Shown here piece after piece: positions 3,875 to 25,058 of a DNA stretch of 64,000 nt. The translations under genes were made by a program, and so were the position numbers. A model generated the notes under the pieces. The model did no database searches and was not told where the DNA came from. It worked only from the letters and a program-made list of their open reading frames with translations. Source of the DNA: Polystyrenella longa (GTDB lineage Bacteria; Planctomycetota; Planctomycetia; Planctomycetales; Planctomycetaceae); assembly GCF_007750395.1 (NCBI RefSeq), contig NZ_CP036281.1:5293001-5357000 (forward strand), given 5' to 3'. Numbering within the stretch: the stretch's first letter is position 1; every line of letters begins with the position of its first letter.

Positions 3875-5404
3875 TCAGCGCGTCAATTTGAGCCAGCAAT
3901 GGAACAGCTTCTTAACGAAGGGCGTCAGTCGGGTGCGGTTGTACTGGTCACCCAGCTTACGAATTGCTTCGGCCTGAGTCGGGTAGGGGTGAATCACGGA
4001 AGCGATTTTGCCCAGACCAATTTTGTACTGCATGGCCTGTGTGATTTGATTAATCAGTTCGCCCGCGTGAGAGGCAACGATGGTCGCTCCTACAATTTGA
4101 TCTGAGTTTTCTTCACAGTAGATTTCGACGAAGCCATCATCTTCTCCCTCCAGAATTGCCCGGTCTACGTCTTTCAAAGGTTGCTTATAGATCTTCAGTT
4201 TCTTTCCGTTGGACAGTGACTCCTCGGGTGTGGTACCGACATGAGCGATTTCGGGAGAGGTGTAAGTACACCAGGGAATGAGCAGCTGGCTCATTTTCGC
4301 TCGCCCCATGAAAAGCGTATTCTGAATAACGGTGCGGGCCATGAAGTCGGCCGCATGCGTGAATTGGTAACGAGAACAGATGTCACCAGCGGCATAGACT
4401 CGGGAATTTGTTGTCTCCAAGCGATCGTCCACTTGAACCCCAGTTTGGGTATCGTACTCAATACCAGCCGCCTCCATATTTAGTCCGTCACAGTTCGGAG
4501 TACGTCCGGTCGACACCAGAATTTCATCAAAGGCGATTTGGTGTTCTTTACCGTTTTGTTCGTAGATTACTTGTTTTCTTTTTCCGTTCGAATCGACCCG
4601 GACCAGGTTGGCATTGAATATGAACTCAATTCCATCTTTCTCCATGGCCTCTTGAACCTGTCGAGAGGACTCCGGTCGTTCCTTGGACAAAATATGATTT
4701 CCACGATCGATCTGAGTCACTTTGCTTCCGAAGCGAGCGAATGTCTGTGCCATTTCGCAACCGATGGGGCCGCCCCCAATTACCACGAGCTTTTCGGGAA
4801 GGGCTGTCAGTGAAAAGAGCGATTCGTTCGTCAGATATCCTGCTTCTTCCAATCCGGGAACGGGAAGCTTTGCCGCGCGTGCCCCCGTAGCGATGACGGC
4901 CCGTTTGTAATCTAATGTGCGTGCTCCTGAATCGCCCGTGACTTCGACCTGGTTCTTGCCGTTGAACTGTCCTTGACCGAAGTAGACATCGACCCCCAGT
5001 TCCTGAAATCGTTTTGCGGAATCATTGGGGCTAATCCGGGCGCGGAGGCGGCGCATGCGTTCCATCACTTCGGAGAAATCGACATCCACGTTTCCCGCCT
5101 GCACGCCATACTCGCCTGCATCCCGGATGGCGGCGATGCATCTGGCCGAACTGATCAAGGCTTTGGATGGAACACACCCGACATTCAGGCAGTCCCCTCC
5201 CATCAACCCCCGTTCTACGAGCGCGACTTTCGCCCCGAGACCTGCTGCTCCGGCTGCCGTAACTAACCCAGCCGTTCCTGCTCCGATCACCACGAGATGA
5301 TACCGGCCAGACGGCTCCGGATTCTTCCATTCCGGTGGATGTACGTGTGATTGAAGAATCTGATTCTGTTCTGTCAGCGGTTCCAGTTGTTGCTTGTAGC
5401 TCAT
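3875..5404 (-). CDS. MerA-like FAD-dependent pyridine nucleotide-disulfide oxidoreductase
   Basis: Class I flavoprotein disulfide reductase of 509 residues. It has an FAD-binding GAGTAGL near residue 42, the redox-active Cys pair in GGDCLNVGCVPSK (C72, C77), a second Rossmann motif (VVIGGGPIGCE) and a C-terminal dimerisation domain with HPYPTQ. It most resembles mercuric-reductase homologues but lacks both the N-terminal HMA domain and the C-terminal vicinal cysteines that bind Hg(II). Mercury reduction is therefore not supported. It follows the TVP38 gene by 57 bases. A pair of this kind commonly sits in or beside arsenosugar-type clusters, which fits the divergent arsM-arsS genes. Cytoplasmic; the physiological substrate is unknown. 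Confidence 0.88.
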   Translation of the reverse strand: MSYKQQLEPLTEQNQILQSHVHPPEWKNPEPSGRYHLVVIGAGTAGLVTAAGAAGLGAKVALVERGLMGGDCLNVGCVPSKALISSARCIAAIRDAGEYGVQAGNVDVDFSEVMERMRRLRARISPNDSAKRFQELGVDVYFGQGQFNGKNQVEVTGDSGARTLDYKRAVIATGARAAKLPVPGLEEAGYLTNESLFSLTALPEKLVVIGGGPIGCEMAQTFARFGSKVTQIDRGNHILSKERPESSRQVQEAMEKDGIEFIFNANLVRVDSNGKRKQVIYEQNGKEHQIAFDEILVSTGRTPNCDGLNMEAAGIEYDTQTGVQVDDRLETTNSRVYAAGDICSRYQFTHAADFMARTVIQNTLFMGRAKMSQLLIPWCTYTSPEIAHVGTTPEESLSNGKKLKIYKQPLKDVDRAILEGEDDGFVEIYCEENSDQIVGATIVASHAGELINQITQAMQYKIGLGKIASVIHPYPTQAEAIRKLGDQYNRTRLTPFVKKLFHCWLKLTR

Positions 5405-5461: not shown

Positions 5462-6253
5462 TTACTCGTTGTCGGTAACGACATCAGACTCAGTAGATTT
5501 AGCCGTGTCCGACGGGCTGAATCCGAAAAGCGGTAACAGTTTTTTAAGAGTAATCGGAAGTAATCCTAAAATCGCAAACGCGAGCAAAACCTGCCAACTG
5601 AGAATTTTGCCGATGCCATCATCGGCCAAGGTTTGCAGATTAGGGACAGTCGATCCGGCATAAACATATGCCGCAGTGCCGGGCAACATGCCGATCTGAC
5701 TTACCCACCAGTAGGTAACCGTTCGAATTCGCGTAAGCCCCATCGCCGTATTTACGACAAAGAAGGGGACGAGCGGGATCAACCGAATCGTGAACAGGTA
5801 GTAGGCACCTTCCTGTTCGAACTTCTTATTCAGTGACTGGAAGCGATCACTCAATCGGGATTGAATCCAATCCCGGAATAAATATCGACTCAATAGAAAA
5901 GCAACGACAGCTCCACCAGTGGAACCAACACTGACAATGACCAATCCGAGCCAGAAGCCAAGGAACCAACCATATGCCAAAGTTAAGGGAACAGCCCCAG
6001 GCAAGGAGATACCAGCGACAATGACATACAGGAGGATGGCTGCGATAATCGTTAGAAAATAATGATCCTGAAACATCTGTTGCAGTTGCCCTTCACGTTG
6101 AGCGAGAGCATCTAGCGAAATCGCGTCACCGTATTGCCAATAGACAAGGACGCCGACCAGCGCGACAACTGCGAACACGATTATTTTGGCCCAAGGTATT
6201 TTTTTTGACCGGGTTTCCCCAATATCTTCTTCCGCAGAAGGTTCGTCACTCAT
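5462..6253 (-). CDS. TVP38/TMEM64 family inner-membrane protein
   Basis: A 263-residue membrane protein with several hydrophobic helices, from IIVFAVVALVGVLVYW near residue 25 to a last span near residue 225. The central VTT/DedA-like core includes GAVPLTLAYGWFLGFW and the GSTGGAVVAFLLSRYLF re-entrant region. N- and C-terminal tails are acidic (SAEEDIGE, SDVVTDNE) and probably cytoplasmic. The family is linked to lipid or solute translocation, but no specific substrate is established. It is the first gene of a minus-strand unit with the MerA-like reductase and diverges from the DUF547-arsM-arsS unit across 278 bases that must contain both promoters. Confidence 0.9.
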   Translation of the reverse strand: MSDEPSAEEDIGETRSKKIPWAKIIVFAVVALVGVLVYWQYGDAISLDALAQREGQLQQMFQDHYFLTIIAAILLYVIVAGISLPGAVPLTLAYGWFLGFWLGLVIVSVGSTGGAVVAFLLSRYLFRDWIQSRLSDRFQSLNKKFEQEGAYYLFTIRLIPLVPFFVVNTAMGLTRIRTVTYWWVSQIGMLPGTAAYVYAGSTVPNLQTLADDGIGKILSWQVLLAFAILGLLPITLKKLLPLFGFSPSDTAKSTESDVVTDNE

Positions 6254-18307: not shown

Positions 18308-19906
18308 TTAGTTGAACCAACGTGCCCAGAACATCCACCATGGCTTTGATTTTGATTCAAACACTTCGCCTGCCGCAGGAGCCACCGGCTCAATCTCTTG
18401 GGTGGTGAGTAATGACGAAACCGAAGGAGGGACGGCCCCTGTGGCCGGTATCTCGCTTATTTCTTCCGATGCAAGATTGGGATTCCAACGGTCTCGCTGA
18501 ACGTCGTTCCGCTGGGTTCGACCTTCCTTTTCGATGATCGTTCGGACCTGTAGCTGGAATTCGCGTCCTTTTTCCGGATCGACCATCGCCACAAAGTTGG
18601 CATAGCCTTCGATCGCTTCCAGTACATTGGGCGAGTTCCCCCAATGCTTTCCTTCAGGTCCATCCTTTTCGATCTGATACAAGGTCGCTCGGAACTGCCG
18701 TAGCTTTTTGCGGGGAATATTGACTCGTTCATTGACGACCAGCCCCGTGACTTCCTGACGGCTTCCTTTCCGGAAGATACGTGTCTTTTCCGGATGAAGT
18801 TGAAAGCCTTCCTGTTCGACCACATAGGAGACCTGCCGCAACATACGACCTACCGCTGCAGAACCCTGACCAGCATGGGAAAATGTCAGGTCGTCAGCGT
18901 AGCGGGTGTAGGTGAATCCCAGCTTTTCCGCGAGACCTGTTAACCGGGCATCGAGTCCGCGGCAAAGAATGTTAGTAATCGCAGGGCTACTGGGCGCCCC
19001 TTGAGGTAACCGCCGTTCCGATTGTTGAACATAGTAGGTTTTTTGATCTAACTGGACTTCAGTTACTTCCGGTTCGGAACAGATCAGTGCGAGAACCGTT
19101 GCCAGTTGCTCGCTGTAACCGAACTTGCGAAACAGGCCTCGAACTCTGCGCCAAGTCACCGTCGGGAAAAAGTTTTCCAGGTCAACATTAATGACGACTT
19201 CCGCTTTAACATGAGGTTCCGCATTAGTGACAATCGAACGACCGGTACGAAAACCATGGGCTGCCGGGTGGAGTTCGATCTTGTCGAGAATATTCCAGAG
19301 AATCCACTCCTGCGCTCGTTTGAGACGGGGCATCGGTGCAGAGATATTTCGTATCCCGCCCGTTTTCTTGGGAATGGCGAAGCGTTGATAATGTGTCGTC
19401 GTTGATGTGCGCCGGTCGAAAGCGAGAAAACGGAGTTCGGCAACAGTGGTCTCCATCGCTTCGGCCAGTTCCTCAACCGAGTGTAATTCGGGAAGGCCTC
19501 GTTTCTGGAGTTCCTCAATTTCAATTTTCTGTTGATTGAGTCCACCGGAAACATCCGAACCTAAATAGACAATGTCTCTCGTATATTGCTCTCGCCACGC
19601 TTCCGCTTTTTCTGCGCGTTCGCGCAACCGTCGTTCTTTGGTTTCCTGACGTTTCAGGCGCGATTCTGCAAGACGCTGTCGACGTGCTTCCCGCTTTAAC
19701 TTTTCGACATCACTCAGCTTTCGATCTTCGGTCGTGAGCGAATGGAGTTTGCGACGCAGCTCCTCACGTTGACGGATTTCGTCCGCGGGGTCTTCGGGAA
19801 GCTCTCCCTCTTTCGGCCAGAAACCTCGACGGATCATCTCATCCAGGATGAACTCATCCCTGGAGGTCTCCCGTATCTGATCCAATATTTCCTGGCGAGA
19901 TCGCAT
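18308..19906 (-). CDS. ret: Retron-type reverse transcriptase with long N-terminal extension
   Basis: A 532-residue reverse transcriptase. Motifs in order: HGFRTGRS (217-224), retron signature NAxxH as NAEPH (228-232), catalytic VDLENFF (241-247), PQGAPSSP (301-308), YADD (336-339) and retron signature VTG (386-388). The NAxxH and VTG pair separates retron RTs from group II intron and DGR enzymes. It would prime on, and copy, the structured RNA lying just upstream, leaving msDNA. Canonical retron RTs are about 300-400 residues. Here roughly the first 135 residues are a highly charged, probably coiled-coil extension, and the C-terminus ends in a Trp-rich stretch (KPWWMFWARWFN). It is the last gene of the WGR-HEAT, SWIM, ncRNA, RT unit, a probable anti-phage retron system. 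Confidence 0.93.
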   Translation of the reverse strand: MRSRQEILDQIRETSRDEFILDEMIRRGFWPKEGELPEDPADEIRQREELRRKLHSLTTEDRKLSDVEKLKREARRQRLAESRLKRQETKERRLRERAEKAEAWREQYTRDIVYLGSDVSGGLNQQKIEIEELQKRGLPELHSVEELAEAMETTVAELRFLAFDRRTSTTTHYQRFAIPKKTGGIRNISAPMPRLKRAQEWILWNILDKIELHPAAHGFRTGRSIVTNAEPHVKAEVVINVDLENFFPTVTWRRVRGLFRKFGYSEQLATVLALICSEPEVTEVQLDQKTYYVQQSERRLPQGAPSSPAITNILCRGLDARLTGLAEKLGFTYTRYADDLTFSHAGQGSAAVGRMLRQVSYVVEQEGFQLHPEKTRIFRKGSRQEVTGLVVNERVNIPRKKLRQFRATLYQIEKDGPEGKHWGNSPNVLEAIEGYANFVAMVDPEKGREFQLQVRTIIEKEGRTQRNDVQRDRWNPNLASEEISEIPATGAVPPSVSSLLTTQEIEPVAPAAGEVFESKSKPWWMFWARWFN

Positions 19907-20061
19907 GTCGGTAGAAATCTATCTTTCCTAAAAGAGGTGTCTCAGTGGGAGGCCATTTCAAAACCCGGTTGTGGATGTTCTTGACGCCACAGCTTGACGC
20001 CACAGATAGAGATTAACTGTTACCCTTTAGAGGGCTTTTAAACTGCTTACAAAAATCACTA

Positions 20062-20315
20062 TGTCCCCGACGGACGGAACAGCCGGTAAGACTTCCCTTC
20101 GAAAGGCTCTCAGGACTGGACCGCTCAACTCAAGCGGGCCACCTAGTAACGGTCAATTGAATCCAGGGGATTCACACTGCAATTACCGTTACTAGGTGAC
20201 AGCCCGCACAGTCACGAGTGGGCCAGTGATGCGGTTCCTATCAATTCACATGAATGGCGATCCACCATTCGGGTTGCAAGGCTCACTTCACCGGCTGCTC
20301 CGTCTGACGGGGACA
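20062..20315 (-). ncRNA. Candidate retron msr-msd RNA with a1/a2 inverted repeats
   Basis: About 254 nucleotides transcribed toward the RT gene, 155 bases ahead of its start. The ends form an imperfect inverted repeat of 26 bases (a1 at 20290-20315, a2 at 20062-20087; 23 of 26 positions match). Between them, in RNA order, are a short msr-like hairpin (20252-20270) and a long msd-like hairpin (20134-20207). The long stem pairs GCGGGC with GCCCGC, then 19 pairs with one bulge (20140-20159 with 20180-20198), and ends in a GAATCC/GGATTC tip with a 3-base loop. Small alternative hairpins lie at 20202-20223 and 20121-20137. This is the retron layout: a1, msr, msd, a2, then RT. The branching guanosine was not assigned. 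Confidence 0.85.
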
Positions 20316-20365
20316 GGTTCAATTATAATTCATTCCTTTTATGATTTTGGTTCTCTCATCTCTCC

Positions 20366-22021
20366 CTAGGTCACATCCAGTTGGTCACGACGCGCATGAC
20401 ACATTCTTAATGCGAGGATATGTTCGCAGGGACCTTTTCGCAACTTGTTCTGCTGATACCAGTTGCAGGTACATTCCGCATCGCTGATTTGTTCGTCCCG
20501 ATTAAGGGATAATGTAGGTTCATACAACTGGCTCTGTTCCTGCACGGTGCCTGTCAGTTGGTGGTTTCCATTCGCGTCAACAGCAGCCACAGTTACTTGA
20601 ACGCTCTGTTCATCGAGAAACCGGACGGCGTTTTCTTCCCGTTCGTTTGCGAATCGCAAATGCTTCATCGGCAGAGGTTCACGGGTCAACTCACGGAGAC
20701 GATACACCCCTTTGGTTCCGTCCCAGATGGCACGGCCCGCTTGCGTGTAAGCAGCTAAGGCTCCAAGTACCACAGAGCGATCCAGACCGAGCTGAGTCGC
20801 CAGCCGATCGGGTGTTTCGTACCAGGTCTCTTTTAAAGTATTGAATACTTTCTCGCGGGTAAATTGATCGACATCTGCTCGCGAGGCCAGTAAATCGAAC
20901 TGGCCTGCACGTGACCAGTCATTCGCCGTCCATCCGGAGAGTCCCAGCGTAAATGCCATATCACCAATGTGAGCGGTGTAAAACGAAGGCATCCCTGTTC
21001 CTAACAACTGCACAGTAAAGCGGTCCGCGATAGGGATTAATCGTTCGAGAATATGCAATCGCCGCCGGCCCCAGACACGGATTTCTTGTTCGGTATTCCC
21101 CTGGTAAACGGATCGTGGACATTCCAGTTCCGTCCCCCAGGGATCGATCACGATCTTGACGGGCGCCCCCGGTGTGAGCTGAAAACGGAGTGATCGTGGT
21201 CCAACCAATTCCCGGTGACGCCGTAGGATCAAGCAGAAATTATGCACATCCATCGGATGGAGGTCGATCGTTGCTGCCGGGAGAGAGAGCGCCGAGCTGA
21301 CTTGCAGGAATCCACGAACCCAGCTGTCAGGCAAGTCGATCTTGATTTCTTTGTGTGCCTCTTCGCCGGAGGTCTCGACTTCGAAGCCAGTAGGGTCGAT
21401 TTCGAACTGCGTTGTTTTATAACTCCGTATTTTTTGGAATTCATCGTAGAGCGAAGAGGAGTAATCAATATTGGTGGTTCCACAGGAGAACTCACCGACG
21501 TTCTGGAACACCTCGTAGCCTATTGAGAGCCGTCCATAACTCGATTCATCCTGACTGAAACACTCAAAAAAGACTTCATCGGGATGAACGGTGATGACAG
21601 GATCGAGAACCAACCAGGCATTGTAGTCTCGAGTAAGCAGGTATTTGAAATATCGAGCCTGAGCTGCGTAGTACGGAGTCCATCGTTCGTTCCGTCGCTG
21701 ATGCAGAACAGCGAGTTCCGCCTGAATCTCGTCAATTTGCTGTGCTAGTTCCTGCTTCTGGGAAGCGACTTTCGCCAGATCGATTTCATTCTGTCGTTCG
21801 GCCCACTGCTTGTAGGCAGTTTTATCCTTGGGTTTCCATCGCAAGTCAGAAACAACGACATCGTGCAGCGTACTGATCGCTTCACGAAAGGCAATGCTCT
21901 GTTTTAATTCTCCGCGAAAGAATGTCGGCAACCGCAGAGTGTCGGGAGCAAACGACATGCTGGTCCGGGAACCGCTGTTCTCAATCGAGGTGATCGATTG
22001 GTAGTTGTAGTTAAACTCCAT
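20366..22021 (-). CDS. SWIM zinc-finger protein, retron accessory
   Basis: A 551-residue protein ending in a SWIM zinc finger: C517-x-C519, then C532-x-H534 (ECTCNW and GPCEHILALRMC). Residues 78-110 are a likely coiled coil; the long middle part has no recognised catalytic motif. SWIM fingers mediate DNA or protein binding. The start is ATG 22021 with GGAGGT upstream. It overlaps the WGR-HEAT stop by 11 bases, so translation is coupled; a longer frame to 22117 is not favoured. The retron RNA begins 50 bases past its stop. By position it should be one half of the effector or sensor module of the retron. The finger is seen; the role is inferred. Confidence 0.88.
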   Translation of the reverse strand: MEFNYNYQSITSIENSGSRTSMSFAPDTLRLPTFFRGELKQSIAFREAISTLHDVVVSDLRWKPKDKTAYKQWAERQNEIDLAKVASQKQELAQQIDEIQAELAVLHQRRNERWTPYYAAQARYFKYLLTRDYNAWLVLDPVITVHPDEVFFECFSQDESSYGRLSIGYEVFQNVGEFSCGTTNIDYSSSLYDEFQKIRSYKTTQFEIDPTGFEVETSGEEAHKEIKIDLPDSWVRGFLQVSSALSLPAATIDLHPMDVHNFCLILRRHRELVGPRSLRFQLTPGAPVKIVIDPWGTELECPRSVYQGNTEQEIRVWGRRRLHILERLIPIADRFTVQLLGTGMPSFYTAHIGDMAFTLGLSGWTANDWSRAGQFDLLASRADVDQFTREKVFNTLKETWYETPDRLATQLGLDRSVVLGALAAYTQAGRAIWDGTKGVYRLRELTREPLPMKHLRFANEREENAVRFLDEQSVQVTVAAVDANGNHQLTGTVQEQSQLYEPTLSLNRDEQISDAECTCNWYQQNKLRKGPCEHILALRMCHARRDQLDVT

Positions 22022-25000
22022 TTCGCACCTCCACCGGTTGCAACTGCAGAATCGTCGGCAAAGTAGGATACCTGGCGTGAATCGCCAGCAGAATTTCAAT
22101 CGCCCGTGATTTGTCACCGATTGCCGCCGTGGCCGACTGTCGGTTCAACAGGTCGATAACGACTTGAGCATTCGCCTCTGACTTCGATGCCTCCTGTTCG
22201 AGAAATCGATAAACACGATTCTTCACCACCCGCCCCCGGTTCACACGCGAGAGGACGGAGGCAAAGAAATATGACAGTCGGCGTAAATGTTCGCCGTCAT
22301 CACCTTCGTATTGACCTAACAAACTGGAGGCAAAAAGCTGCATGTCGCCACTGGGATGTTCGCTGAGTTTGATAAGGTATTCTTCGGCATGCTCTTCGTC
22401 GAAAGCCCGGGTAATCAATTCGCGACCAAACTGCTGCACATCGGGCCTTGTACTGTCGCAAATAGCGATTTGCATGTCGGGCGATAGTAGTTCACTCTCG
22501 ACCACGTTCTCGCGGAAGTACTGGAATGCAAACTGACGACTGTCGTCCCAACGAGTATCGAATAACTTGATGGCGGCAGGCAGGTCTTTCCGTATCTTGT
22601 CAACATCCTTCCGGCACCATTGCCGGGCGATTTGTCTGACGTCAATCAAATCATGATCGGCAAGCACGACTAAGTCATAAACAGAAAGTTCAATCGAATC
22701 CACATTCGTCTCGAGCAATTCCGCCCCCAATTGCTGGGCCGGTCCGGATTTCGAATTCAACAACTGCCACACTTGTCTCGAGGGGACATCATTCAGAAAT
22801 CCTCTTAAGTCACTACACAGCAATTGCATCGTGTAGGTAGGAACCCCTTCGGATGCTCCAGAGATAAGAAGTGCTTCGACGAGACGTACGGATATCTGGT
22901 GACCAAAAAGACTGTCGGACTGGGCCAATTCGATCAGCGTGGGACGCATCAGTTCCCGGATCTTCTCCTGAGGATGGCGAATCAGTTGGAAGACGATCTC
23001 TTCATTCTCTTTCAACACTTCAGGCGATAACTGCAGGAAGATTTGTATGCCCACATCAACCACGATTTCCTGCTTCGACGAGAGCAGGGCAACCAGTACG
23101 TCGACGGGAGGAGCTTGTCGAAAGGTATCATGCAGTAGAATGAGTTCCCCTGCGAAACGTCGCAATTCAGGCACACGATGCGCTGCGAGGTACAGTAGGA
23201 CATCGAGATTGACTCTTTGAAGATCCTTCTCAAAATTCTCCAATAACATCTGGCTCAGCTCAGCGGCGAGACGACTATCGATCTCATCCAGTTTGTAAAG
23301 TCGAGAAAAGATCTGTTTAAGTATTTCGCGACGGACAGTTGTTGACAGATCCACCTCACGAAGTACCTGCCGAGCATGCTGACGTGTTTGAGGTTGAGGA
23401 CTGGCGAGTAAGGCAACAGCAAAGTCACTGTTGGCAAAAAGAGTTTCCCTCACTGGAGTGATCCACTCCCAGGCTTGTTTCTGTGCTTCATCATAGCTGC
23501 AATTGGCGAGTGCAGTAAGAAGATCGAGATCAGGAGAATCGGCATCATACCGAGGGCGGGCAAGTTCGAGTGCGTAATGATTGGTGACCGTGTAGGGCGT
23601 TTCCAGTAGCGAAATCAGAGAGGACGATTCCATCTCGTTGCAAAACGAAGGGCAGTCCCGCAAGACGTGAACTCCGAAGTGATGAACCTTCTCACAGCAA
23701 CTGACTGTCAACATTTCAAAGACAACCTGGGGTTGTTGTTCCCACAGTTCCGGAAACGCTTCTTCCCGCACATTGTTTAATAAGCCATCGTTTCCTTGAT
23801 ACTCTTTTTGAAAACAAAAGTAGCGACGTGCCTTGTCCAATTCGAAGCGAGGGCTGTTTCCATACAGGAGTTGATTCAACGCCAGATAAGGAGCATAGGG
23901 TCCGTAACGGACGGTGATACTCTGGTAACGATAGGTTTTTGGAATGGGAACGTAGGTATATTTTTTTCGTTCAGGGACAGCATCTCCGTCGGTGTATTGC
24001 CGTAGCAGATGAGCCGCCATCGGGACGAACTCGGGTTGTTCCAGTTCGGCCATTCGCTTAAGCGTCCACCAGATGCGACGACGGAAGTAGAACTTACTCT
24101 CTTTACGAAAACGATCTCGGCCACTTTTGGTCGTTTCAAAGCGATAGGCGAGGATCCCAAAGACCTCAGCATCGCATCGCAATTCGGCCGCTTTGAAGAT
24201 GTGCCGCAAGGCTTGGAACAGATCGTGTTTGAACTCAGCTGACTGCAACCAGGTCAGCAGCACCGGTCGAACGAACTCATTGTTGAGAAGGTACAACGAT
24301 TCCATCACCAACGCCGTTTGTTTGTCGCTTTCATTACGGAACTCTCGCAAATCTTTTTCAAACAGCTCAATCGGACCATCCAAAGCCGATTTGAGAAGAT
24401 TGTCGGGGAGTCCATGTAGCTGCTGTTCGAGAAATCCCCGTTGTTCTTCACCAGTAAGAATTTGAGCCAAGGCTACAGTAGCAATACGCCGTGCATGAGG
24501 AGCGTTATTTTCGTCGTCGATGAATAGGGACAGCGCCGCGCGGCTGGCCGTACCGCCCAGTCGCCCCAAAGACCAGGCCACGGCATAATCGAGCATCGGG
24601 TCACCACTACCGAGGAGCGAGATCAACACGGGTTCGGCTTCATGGAGTCGAAACTCCCCCGCGCGCCAAACTGCCCGAGACAACTTCCAGGAGTGATTCG
24701 TATCCTTGTCCCTCGAAAGCCGATTCAGGATCGCCTGTTCCCGCGCGGTTAGTTGACTTGCTGCTTTCGTTACCTGGGCCTCTGCTTCCTGCTCGCTCAG
24801 TGGGGCGATGGCCGTGTGCGTGGTTTCTCGATATCCTTTGGTCGTTTTGGAAGTCACCAGCTCCTCGAACATCAGTTCTGCATCCGAAAAAGAAAGAGGC
24901 TCGTCCGTATTTGTTCCTTCTGATAGCGTAGTTCCCCGGTGTCCATGACGAAAATTGACCACGAACTGATCCGGTCCAATCTCGCACAGGTCGATTTCAT

Positions 25001-25058
25001 AGATTTCGTCCGAGTTCCCTTCACGGAATTCGAGAATCACCTGTTTGTGCAATTTCAT
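22011..25058 (-). CDS. WGR-domain and HEAT-repeat protein, retron accessory
   Basis: A 1015-residue cytoplasmic protein. Residues 1-85 form a WGR-type domain (VILEFREGNSDEIYEIDL, FRHGHRGTTLSEG, KTTKGYRE), known in PARPs and bacterial MolR-like proteins and associated with nucleic-acid binding. From about residue 90 onward it is built of HEAT-like helical pairs (LGSGDPMLDYAVAWSLGRLGG; later PQTRQHARQVLREVD and RPDVQQFGRELITRAFD). No nuclease, protease or ADP-ribosyltransferase motif is seen. It is first in the operon and overlaps the SWIM gene by 11 bases. A WGR-HEAT protein plus a SWIM protein next to a retron RT suggests a two-part DNA-sensing or effector complex. Confidence 0.87.
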   Translation of the reverse strand: MKLHKQVILEFREGNSDEIYEIDLCEIGPDQFVVNFRHGHRGTTLSEGTNTDEPLSFSDAELMFEELVTSKTTKGYRETTHTAIAPLSEQEAEAQVTKAASQLTAREQAILNRLSRDKDTNHSWKLSRAVWRAGEFRLHEAEPVLISLLGSGDPMLDYAVAWSLGRLGGTASRAALSLFIDDENNAPHARRIATVALAQILTGEEQRGFLEQQLHGLPDNLLKSALDGPIELFEKDLREFRNESDKQTALVMESLYLLNNEFVRPVLLTWLQSAEFKHDLFQALRHIFKAAELRCDAEVFGILAYRFETTKSGRDRFRKESKFYFRRRIWWTLKRMAELEQPEFVPMAAHLLRQYTDGDAVPERKKYTYVPIPKTYRYQSITVRYGPYAPYLALNQLLYGNSPRFELDKARRYFCFQKEYQGNDGLLNNVREEAFPELWEQQPQVVFEMLTVSCCEKVHHFGVHVLRDCPSFCNEMESSSLISLLETPYTVTNHYALELARPRYDADSPDLDLLTALANCSYDEAQKQAWEWITPVRETLFANSDFAVALLASPQPQTRQHARQVLREVDLSTTVRREILKQIFSRLYKLDEIDSRLAAELSQMLLENFEKDLQRVNLDVLLYLAAHRVPELRRFAGELILLHDTFRQAPPVDVLVALLSSKQEIVVDVGIQIFLQLSPEVLKENEEIVFQLIRHPQEKIRELMRPTLIELAQSDSLFGHQISVRLVEALLISGASEGVPTYTMQLLCSDLRGFLNDVPSRQVWQLLNSKSGPAQQLGAELLETNVDSIELSVYDLVVLADHDLIDVRQIARQWCRKDVDKIRKDLPAAIKLFDTRWDDSRQFAFQYFRENVVESELLSPDMQIAICDSTRPDVQQFGRELITRAFDEEHAEEYLIKLSEHPSGDMQLFASSLLGQYEGDDGEHLRRLSYFFASVLSRVNRGRVVKNRVYRFLEQEASKSEANAQVVIDLLNRQSATAAIGDKSRAIEILLAIHARYPTLPTILQLQPVEVRNGV

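Follow-up and report, generated by a model that had tools for sequence, protein, structure and literature searches.

Retrons are bacterial reverse-transcriptase systems of a sort that has been linked to defence against phages. Retron reverse transcriptases (RTs) are marked by the motifs named NAxxH and VTG, and in Retron-Eco1 (Ec86) the RNA is composed of closing arms that lie flush against the priming G, msr hairpins, and a long msd hairpin, which anatomy is also that of the RNA described here. The classification of Mestre et al. 2020 is said to have defined retron type XIII. The passages of Simon et al. 2019 (PMC6868368) devoted to such elements give retron arms of about 8–30 complementary bases and msd stems of about 10–50 pairs, name UAGC/TAGC as the commonest published priming context, and refer to the RT regions as X, Y, and YADD; and for other retrons two further papers (PMC12548924, PMC13405049) describe an effector that is held by the RT-msDNA until infection.

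The window—by which we mean the whole stretch of 64,000 nucleotides that was analysed—carries on its minus strand, in this order, a WGR-HEAT gene, a SWIM gene, a noncoding RNA (ncRNA), and an RT gene. The WGR_XIII protein (22011–25058, minus strand; 1015 aa) has an N-terminal WGR domain and a HEAT/ARM solenoid. The SWIM_XIII protein (20366–22021, minus strand) measures 551 aa from the ATG common to its homologues, the open frame extending beyond that ATG to 22117; its residues 34–366 have a predicted PCNA-like clamp fold, followed by a helical region and a SWIM zinc finger. The RT_XIII (18308–19906, minus strand; 532 aa) contains NAEPH—that is, NAxxH—together with YADD and VTG, the motifs of a retron RT, and its closest solved counterpart by sequence is the RT of retron Ec86 (4.5e-47). 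The PADLOC models matched at E 6e-191 for RT_XIII, 1.5e-235 for SWIM_XIII, and 0 for WGR_XIII, so that the positions from 18308 to 25058 bring together in one locus the RT_XIII, SWIM_XIII, and WGR/HEAT-ARM_XIII by which type XIII is recognized. On these grounds and on those that follow, we read the stretch 20062–20315 as the msr-msd RNA of a type XIII retron, with the anatomy given below, at a probability of about 0.93. The first-pass annotation had likewise called it a retron RNA, an identification strengthened by the location between the SWIM_XIII and RT_XIII genes, by strong covariation, and by a conserved G that immediately follows the closing arm.

Among 103 RT matches, in which one RT was sometimes counted via more than one locus, NAxxH was present in 90, YxDD in 103, and VTG in 100. 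A pattern search, which detects close relatives only, returned no relatives of the window RT in viral contigs; another, allowing up to two mismatches, found a single copy of the RNA in the window's own genome. That genome also encodes a second retron-like RT (L002; G000:C1:1674700–1675704; 35% identity), and in many genomes of its family an RT matches RT_XIII at about 1e-100 without a SWIM_XIII match. Between the RNA and the RT gene of the window, at 19980–20005, the 13-mer CTTGACGCCACAG stands in exact tandem copy.

The terminal repeat that had been annotated, of 26 bases with three mismatches, proved to be exactly so at 20062–20087 and 20290–20315, and since one of those mismatches is a G-U on the RNA strand, 24 of the 26 positions pair; in 60 dinucleotide shuffles of 19601–20800 the best 26-mer inverted repeat had at least seven mismatches. 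Upon folding, as the annotation had recommended, the minus strand from 20330 to 20050 formed a single rod of −132 kcal/mol (z −8.07, 200 shuffles). In that rod the closing arms extend to a CCUU/AAGG helix (20281–20278 / 20096–20099), for a length of some 38 nt each with an internal loop included: the a1 arm (20278–20315, minus strand) comprises the 26-nt outer part at 20290–20315, the internal loop, and CCUU at 20281–20278, flush with the priming G; the a2 arm (20062–20099, minus strand) comprises AAGG at 20099–20096, the internal loop, and the 26-nt outer part at 20087–20062, after which arm comes a T-rich stretch. This is one of the features by which a retron is recognized: an adjacent structured ncRNA with complementary ends that close on a priming G. 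The heptamer GAGCCUU, found just before that G (20284–20278, minus strand), recurs in the template next to a2 (20109–20103), and the same repeat is present in L103 and L104.

The annotation had considered the a1/a2 pairing unusually long, which view we do not share. Across the family (27 RNAs, with the window's among them) the longest near-continuous arm helix ranged from 7 to 31 pairs with a median of 19, and the window, with 26, was tied for sixth; therefore, from that rank within the family and from the published ranges for arms and msd stems, we regard the long arms and the bipartite stem alike as normal. Arm shuffles preserved base composition and not dinucleotides. When arms were compared across the family, the own partner gave the best pairing in 20 of the 27 RNAs and a foreign arm paired as well as or better than the own one in the other seven, two of which (L133, L158) have weak arm pairing, the remaining five matching one or two foreign arms equally.

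The probable priming (branching) G is G20277 (minus strand), in CUUGC, as judged from the alignment and from the CCUU/AAGG helix that closes flush against it. Its context in the window, UUGC, is not the commonest UAGC, which departure counts against the assignment; in three divergent members (L092, L100, L196) the aligned column reads TAGC. Next comes the msr hairpin (20248–20277, minus strand), in which GCA...UGC closes an 8-bp stem with GGUGGAUCGCC and which corresponds to consensus helices 2 and 3; after a stretch without consensus pairs there follows the msd hairpin (20115–20227, minus strand), consisting of a conserved outer helix (20210–20227 / 20115–20130), variable blocks, a bulge, and a tip hairpin. 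The annotation had placed the msd-like hairpin at 20134–20207, with two paired blocks, a 3-nt bulge, and a separate tip. All of those elements are there—14 perfect pairs (20140–20153 / 20185–20198), outside them a 6-pair GCGGGC block, the 3-nt bulge between both, and the tip GAATCC/GGATTC—but the hairpin likely to be copied is the larger one of 20115–20227. The bipartite stem, too, is real without being a peculiarity, in that many folded relatives show the same succession of outer block, small bulge on the 5' side, and inner block. The msd bulge carries a GU (20177–20176) that is invariant in all 25 aligned RNAs.

To judge by where the priming G and a2 lie, the likely reverse-transcribed template would span 20101–20230 (minus strand), its ends being approximate. 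By analogy with the retron family, the RT would prime on the 2'-OH of G20277 and copy from about 20101 to about 20230, to yield an msDNA of some 130 nt, mostly double-stranded and joined to the msr; that msDNA is made in this way we hold to be very likely. The mostly double-stranded msDNA foreseen by the annotation is likewise likely as a model, inasmuch as 82 of 132 nt (62%) were paired in the predicted DNA copy, whose ends are assumed.

Covariation among homologues, whose absence the annotation would have taken as a refutation, was present in the aligned RNAs. We aligned 25 RNA cores from 24 loci of several phyla, which loci were taken from around part of the SWIM_XIII matches, from around RT relatives, and from one Methylobacterium plasmid; L181 (cut by a contig end), the second copy of L156, and L090 (a run of N) were left out, and of L007 and L008, identical over 13.6 kb, one was kept. 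The latter are two scaffolds of one genome with an identical 13.6-kb type XIII locus, through either a recent duplication or an assembly effect. RNAalifold gave 44 pairs, 30 of them with at least one double compensatory change; 92.6% of the cells were paired versus 77.6% upon shuffling, and the covariation score was 0.439 versus 0.164, a value that none of 500 shuffles attained. When the partners were slid by one to three columns, pairing fell to 35–45%, in which comparison the structure, coming from the same alignment, is favoured over its slid versions.

The covariance model built from these cores has 189 positions. With cmsearch it gave 31 matches at E <1e-10 in 81 sources, 25 being training rows and 6 new; another 13, out of 44 in all, had E >1e-10, some of them on the strand opposite to a true match, and these we did not accept as members. 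Six further RNA members outside the alignment were found only by that search or among the left-out rows. In the family of L004, 22 of 61 genomes matched at E ≤0.001, with 17 places below 1e-30. The core, measured from the CTTGCAA to the CGAA box, is 181–185 nt long in 23 of 26 RNAs (L009 not being included in that count), and in 21 of the 24 loci begins within about 135 nt of a SWIM match or gene end. Rfam contained nothing that matched the window at the gathering score; one permissive match in the region, to a microRNA family below the cut-off, was taken as chance.

The part before the variable stem measures 76 nt in 33 of 37 RNAs, and the stem itself has at least 19 near-continuous pairs in all 37, each in its own fold, with at least four pair types in every register from 3 to 19; from these two features together we conclude that the sequence of the stem, on the comparisons available, is free, and that its pairing and, nearly, its length are fixed. 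The count of 18.9 Watson-Crick pairs in 19 is partly circular, the pairs having been taken from each sequence's own fold, and the evidence on pairing that we rely on is that of the alignment-wide counts.

For the distribution of the system, the RT_XIII profile was unspecific—within the window's phylum it matched 175 of the 392 genomes, and among the controls 3 of 14—and we therefore used SWIM_XIII as the marker, which matched one of the 14 named controls. Weak matches included, SWIM_XIII occurred in 31 of those 392 genomes, in 17 of 244 in the phylum of L004 (Kamptonema), 8 of 251 in that of L003 (Anaerolineales), and 39 of 235 in that of L006 (Polyangiaceae), the taxon labels of relatives being inferred from the named centres L004 and L006; phage records contained no SWIM match at E 1e-5. 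In six of nine cyanobacteria (L133, L134, L156, L157, L158, L160) the RT lies on a contig other than that of the SWIM-ncRNA pair, and in L133 and L134 the sequence downstream of the RNA, over 13 kb in length, contains no RT match; in these cyanobacteria it is SWIM, and not the RT, that the RNA accompanies, and cis linkage is thus not universal.

Six loci (L231–L236, with the core near 1500 from the RT-proximal end) contain a shorter RNA, with a model match of 123–139 nt, that has its msr half and 3' end in common with the family but a different msd. In all six that RNA is downstream of a relative of the window RT (51–56% identity), and within the approximately 3.1 kb examined neither SWIM nor WGR was matched at E 1e-20; we regard this as a cousin retron. 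In two other loci a single SWIM gene is accompanied by two RNA copies: in tandem, with differing stems, at L003:5448–5637 and 5711–5900; and 1.3 kb apart, the second with a larger msd, at L156:5605–5793 and 4279–4513. The SWIM-RT gap of 4–6 kb in L003 and L103 had suggested an array of variable retron RNAs, which idea we rejected: in L003 the gap holds the tandem pair only, the rest being other ORFs, and in L103 it holds ORFs that, by eye, resemble guaA and a transporter of the sugar ABC type.

The SWIM protein was modeled with AlphaFold2 from a 23-row alignment (mean pLDDT 79, pTM 0.74), from which L134 and L094 were left out as frames with a stop and in which L006, L186, L189, and others were not included; the frames chosen at L134:14712–16397 and L094:4211–5971 have one in-frame stop each. 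Foldseek against the PDB placed sliding clamps first, with 469 matches at E ≤0.001 of which the best 50 are PCNA or PCNA complexes; and against viral models, most of the named matches listed are PCNA or phage clamps. With VIA-align, residues 34–364 of the model superposed on an archaeal PCNA with Z 21.2 and rmsd 2.6 over 233 of 244 residues. A PCNA-like two-domain clamp fold is accordingly predicted for the SWIM protein, the match relying on one AlphaFold2 model. At the level of sequence, the SWIM profile retrieved no PCNA from the PDB sequences at E up to 1 and Pfam recognized the SWIM domain alone and no clamp family, for which reason we do not file the protein as a member of the PCNA family and speak of it as clamp-like in predicted fold only.

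As regards the partners, the model suggests that the SWIM protein may form a ring and bind the msDNA at its double-stranded stem; what a clamp requires is a duplex that is long enough, whatever its sequence, to which demand the msd stem would be suited. In the mechanism that we envisage, and with less certainty than the priming itself, the RT-msDNA would keep both partner proteins inactive until a phage infection freed them, leading to abortive infection; by analogy with the effectors of other retrons, the chances of such a guarded abortive infection seem to us about even. The SWIM partner would bind the duplex stem of the msDNA and, after its release, DNA that is being replicated. A more specific version, which we consider quite unlikely, would have the ring encircle or grip the stem, length-fixed and sequence-free; disturbance by a phage would then free the ring, which together with the WGR-HEAT scaffold would load on replicating DNA and jam the fork. 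For the WGR-HEAT partner, a solenoid, no specific match emerged—the structural matches listed (best 50) were HEAT solenoids of low TM-score—and neither Pfam nor NCBIfam indicated an enzymatic domain in either partner. Taken whole, a retron RNA with its msDNA, guarded partners, and a clamp-like SWIM protein is likely the best explanation of the locus.

The identity of the RNA could be conceived otherwise. That DRT enzymes make cDNA on an ncRNA template has been published, and the window RNA might thus be the template of a defence RT of that kind, protein-primed or producing repetitive cDNA, instead of a branched-G msr-msd. Yet the window RT is far closer to RT_XIII and Ec86 than to Drt2 (3e-9) and bears the NAxxH and VTG motifs of retrons, and the closing arms directly abut a conserved G at whose column the three divergent members have TAGC, all of which makes a DRT template very improbable. 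Nor do we attribute more than a negligible probability to the view that the inverted repeats serve chiefly to end transcription of the SWIM operon: in many cyanobacterial members the closing arms do lead into T tracts, and a weak terminator-like site exists at 20081–20062, but that one site compares with 0.5 expected in shuffles, and a terminator would leave unexplained why an RNA of 189 model positions covaries, hardly changes in length, and has conserved unpaired letters. The stem may nevertheless serve both roles, as retron arm and as terminator. Another question concerns the variable msd stem, which might be under diversifying selection or arm-to-arm copying and serve as a sequence tag. 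The tandem copies of L003 differ, with pairing kept, in 8 of 19 stem pairs versus 8 of 112 core bases, L221 and L222 in 3 of 19 versus 1 of 111, and L225 and L228 in 3 of 19 versus 0 of 112; between L133 and L158, three stem pairs have changed, again with pairing kept, and few other positions of the RNA. The SWIM fourfold sites of L133 and L158, however, differ by 16%; in the cyanobacterial pairs L221/L222 and L225/L228, 16% of the stem pairs changed versus 12–17% of those sites, an about equal pace; and L215/L218 and L216/L217 differ in 0 of 19 stem pairs despite fourfold divergences of 14% and 18%. A free sequence under a pairing constraint suffices to account for these figures; they do not show a stem made hypervariable by positive selection, and a sequence tag appears improbable. 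We conclude that the stem, by these comparisons, drifts freely under the pairing constraint, with selection for diversity as a possible addition.

As to the SWIM protein, the retron RNA could work while the clamp fold was a mere structural echo, the protein being an ordinary DNA-binding regulator or toxin. The searches of Pfam and of the PDB with the profile, which found no sequence similarity to clamps, speak for that alternative, to which we assign slightly less than even odds; against it stand the Z of 21 over almost the entire two-domain clamp and six residues—R46, R199, R236, R319, R321, and R327—that are basic in 23 of 23 homologues and located in or next to helices of the clamp domains, as candidates for lining a channel. 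That the role of SWIM is clamp-type DNA binding is, on the model, a tentative and rather unlikely proposal. If the clamp-like fold is real, this would be a kind of retron effector that we did not find described among the matches listed, and would tie the msDNA, whose role is unclear in many retrons, to the biology of sliding clamps; no paper on a retron or anti-phage system together with a sliding clamp appeared by title among the matches listed.

The window RNA is real, well supported, and ordinary for its family in the features that had been singled out, the clamp-like neighbour being the surprising lead. A literature search found no paper on a retron together with WHSWIM and, among the matches listed, none on a retron together with type XIII; the RNA may already be drawn in Mestre et al. 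2020. What the present analysis contributes is a covariance model, open to testing, for an RNA of type XIII retrons that occurs in several phyla, with a predicted priming G and msDNA, which would permit a direct search for the msDNA.

With respect to known systems, PCNA-type sliding clamps share their fold with residues 34–366 of the SWIM model at Z 21, whereas the identity is 6–12% with no profile match, and the SWIM protein departs from them in the helices inserted in its first half, in its C-terminal helical region, and in its SWIM zinc finger. Retron-Eco1 (Ec86) has the solved RT closest in sequence to that of the window; its arms are shorter than the window's, its priming site has UAGC where the window has UUGC, and the two partner proteins of the window are of other kinds. 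The nearest likeness is to the type XIII retrons of PADLOC, whose models all three proteins of the window match with very low E-values and in the same operon, and from which, among the features tested, none sets the window locus apart.
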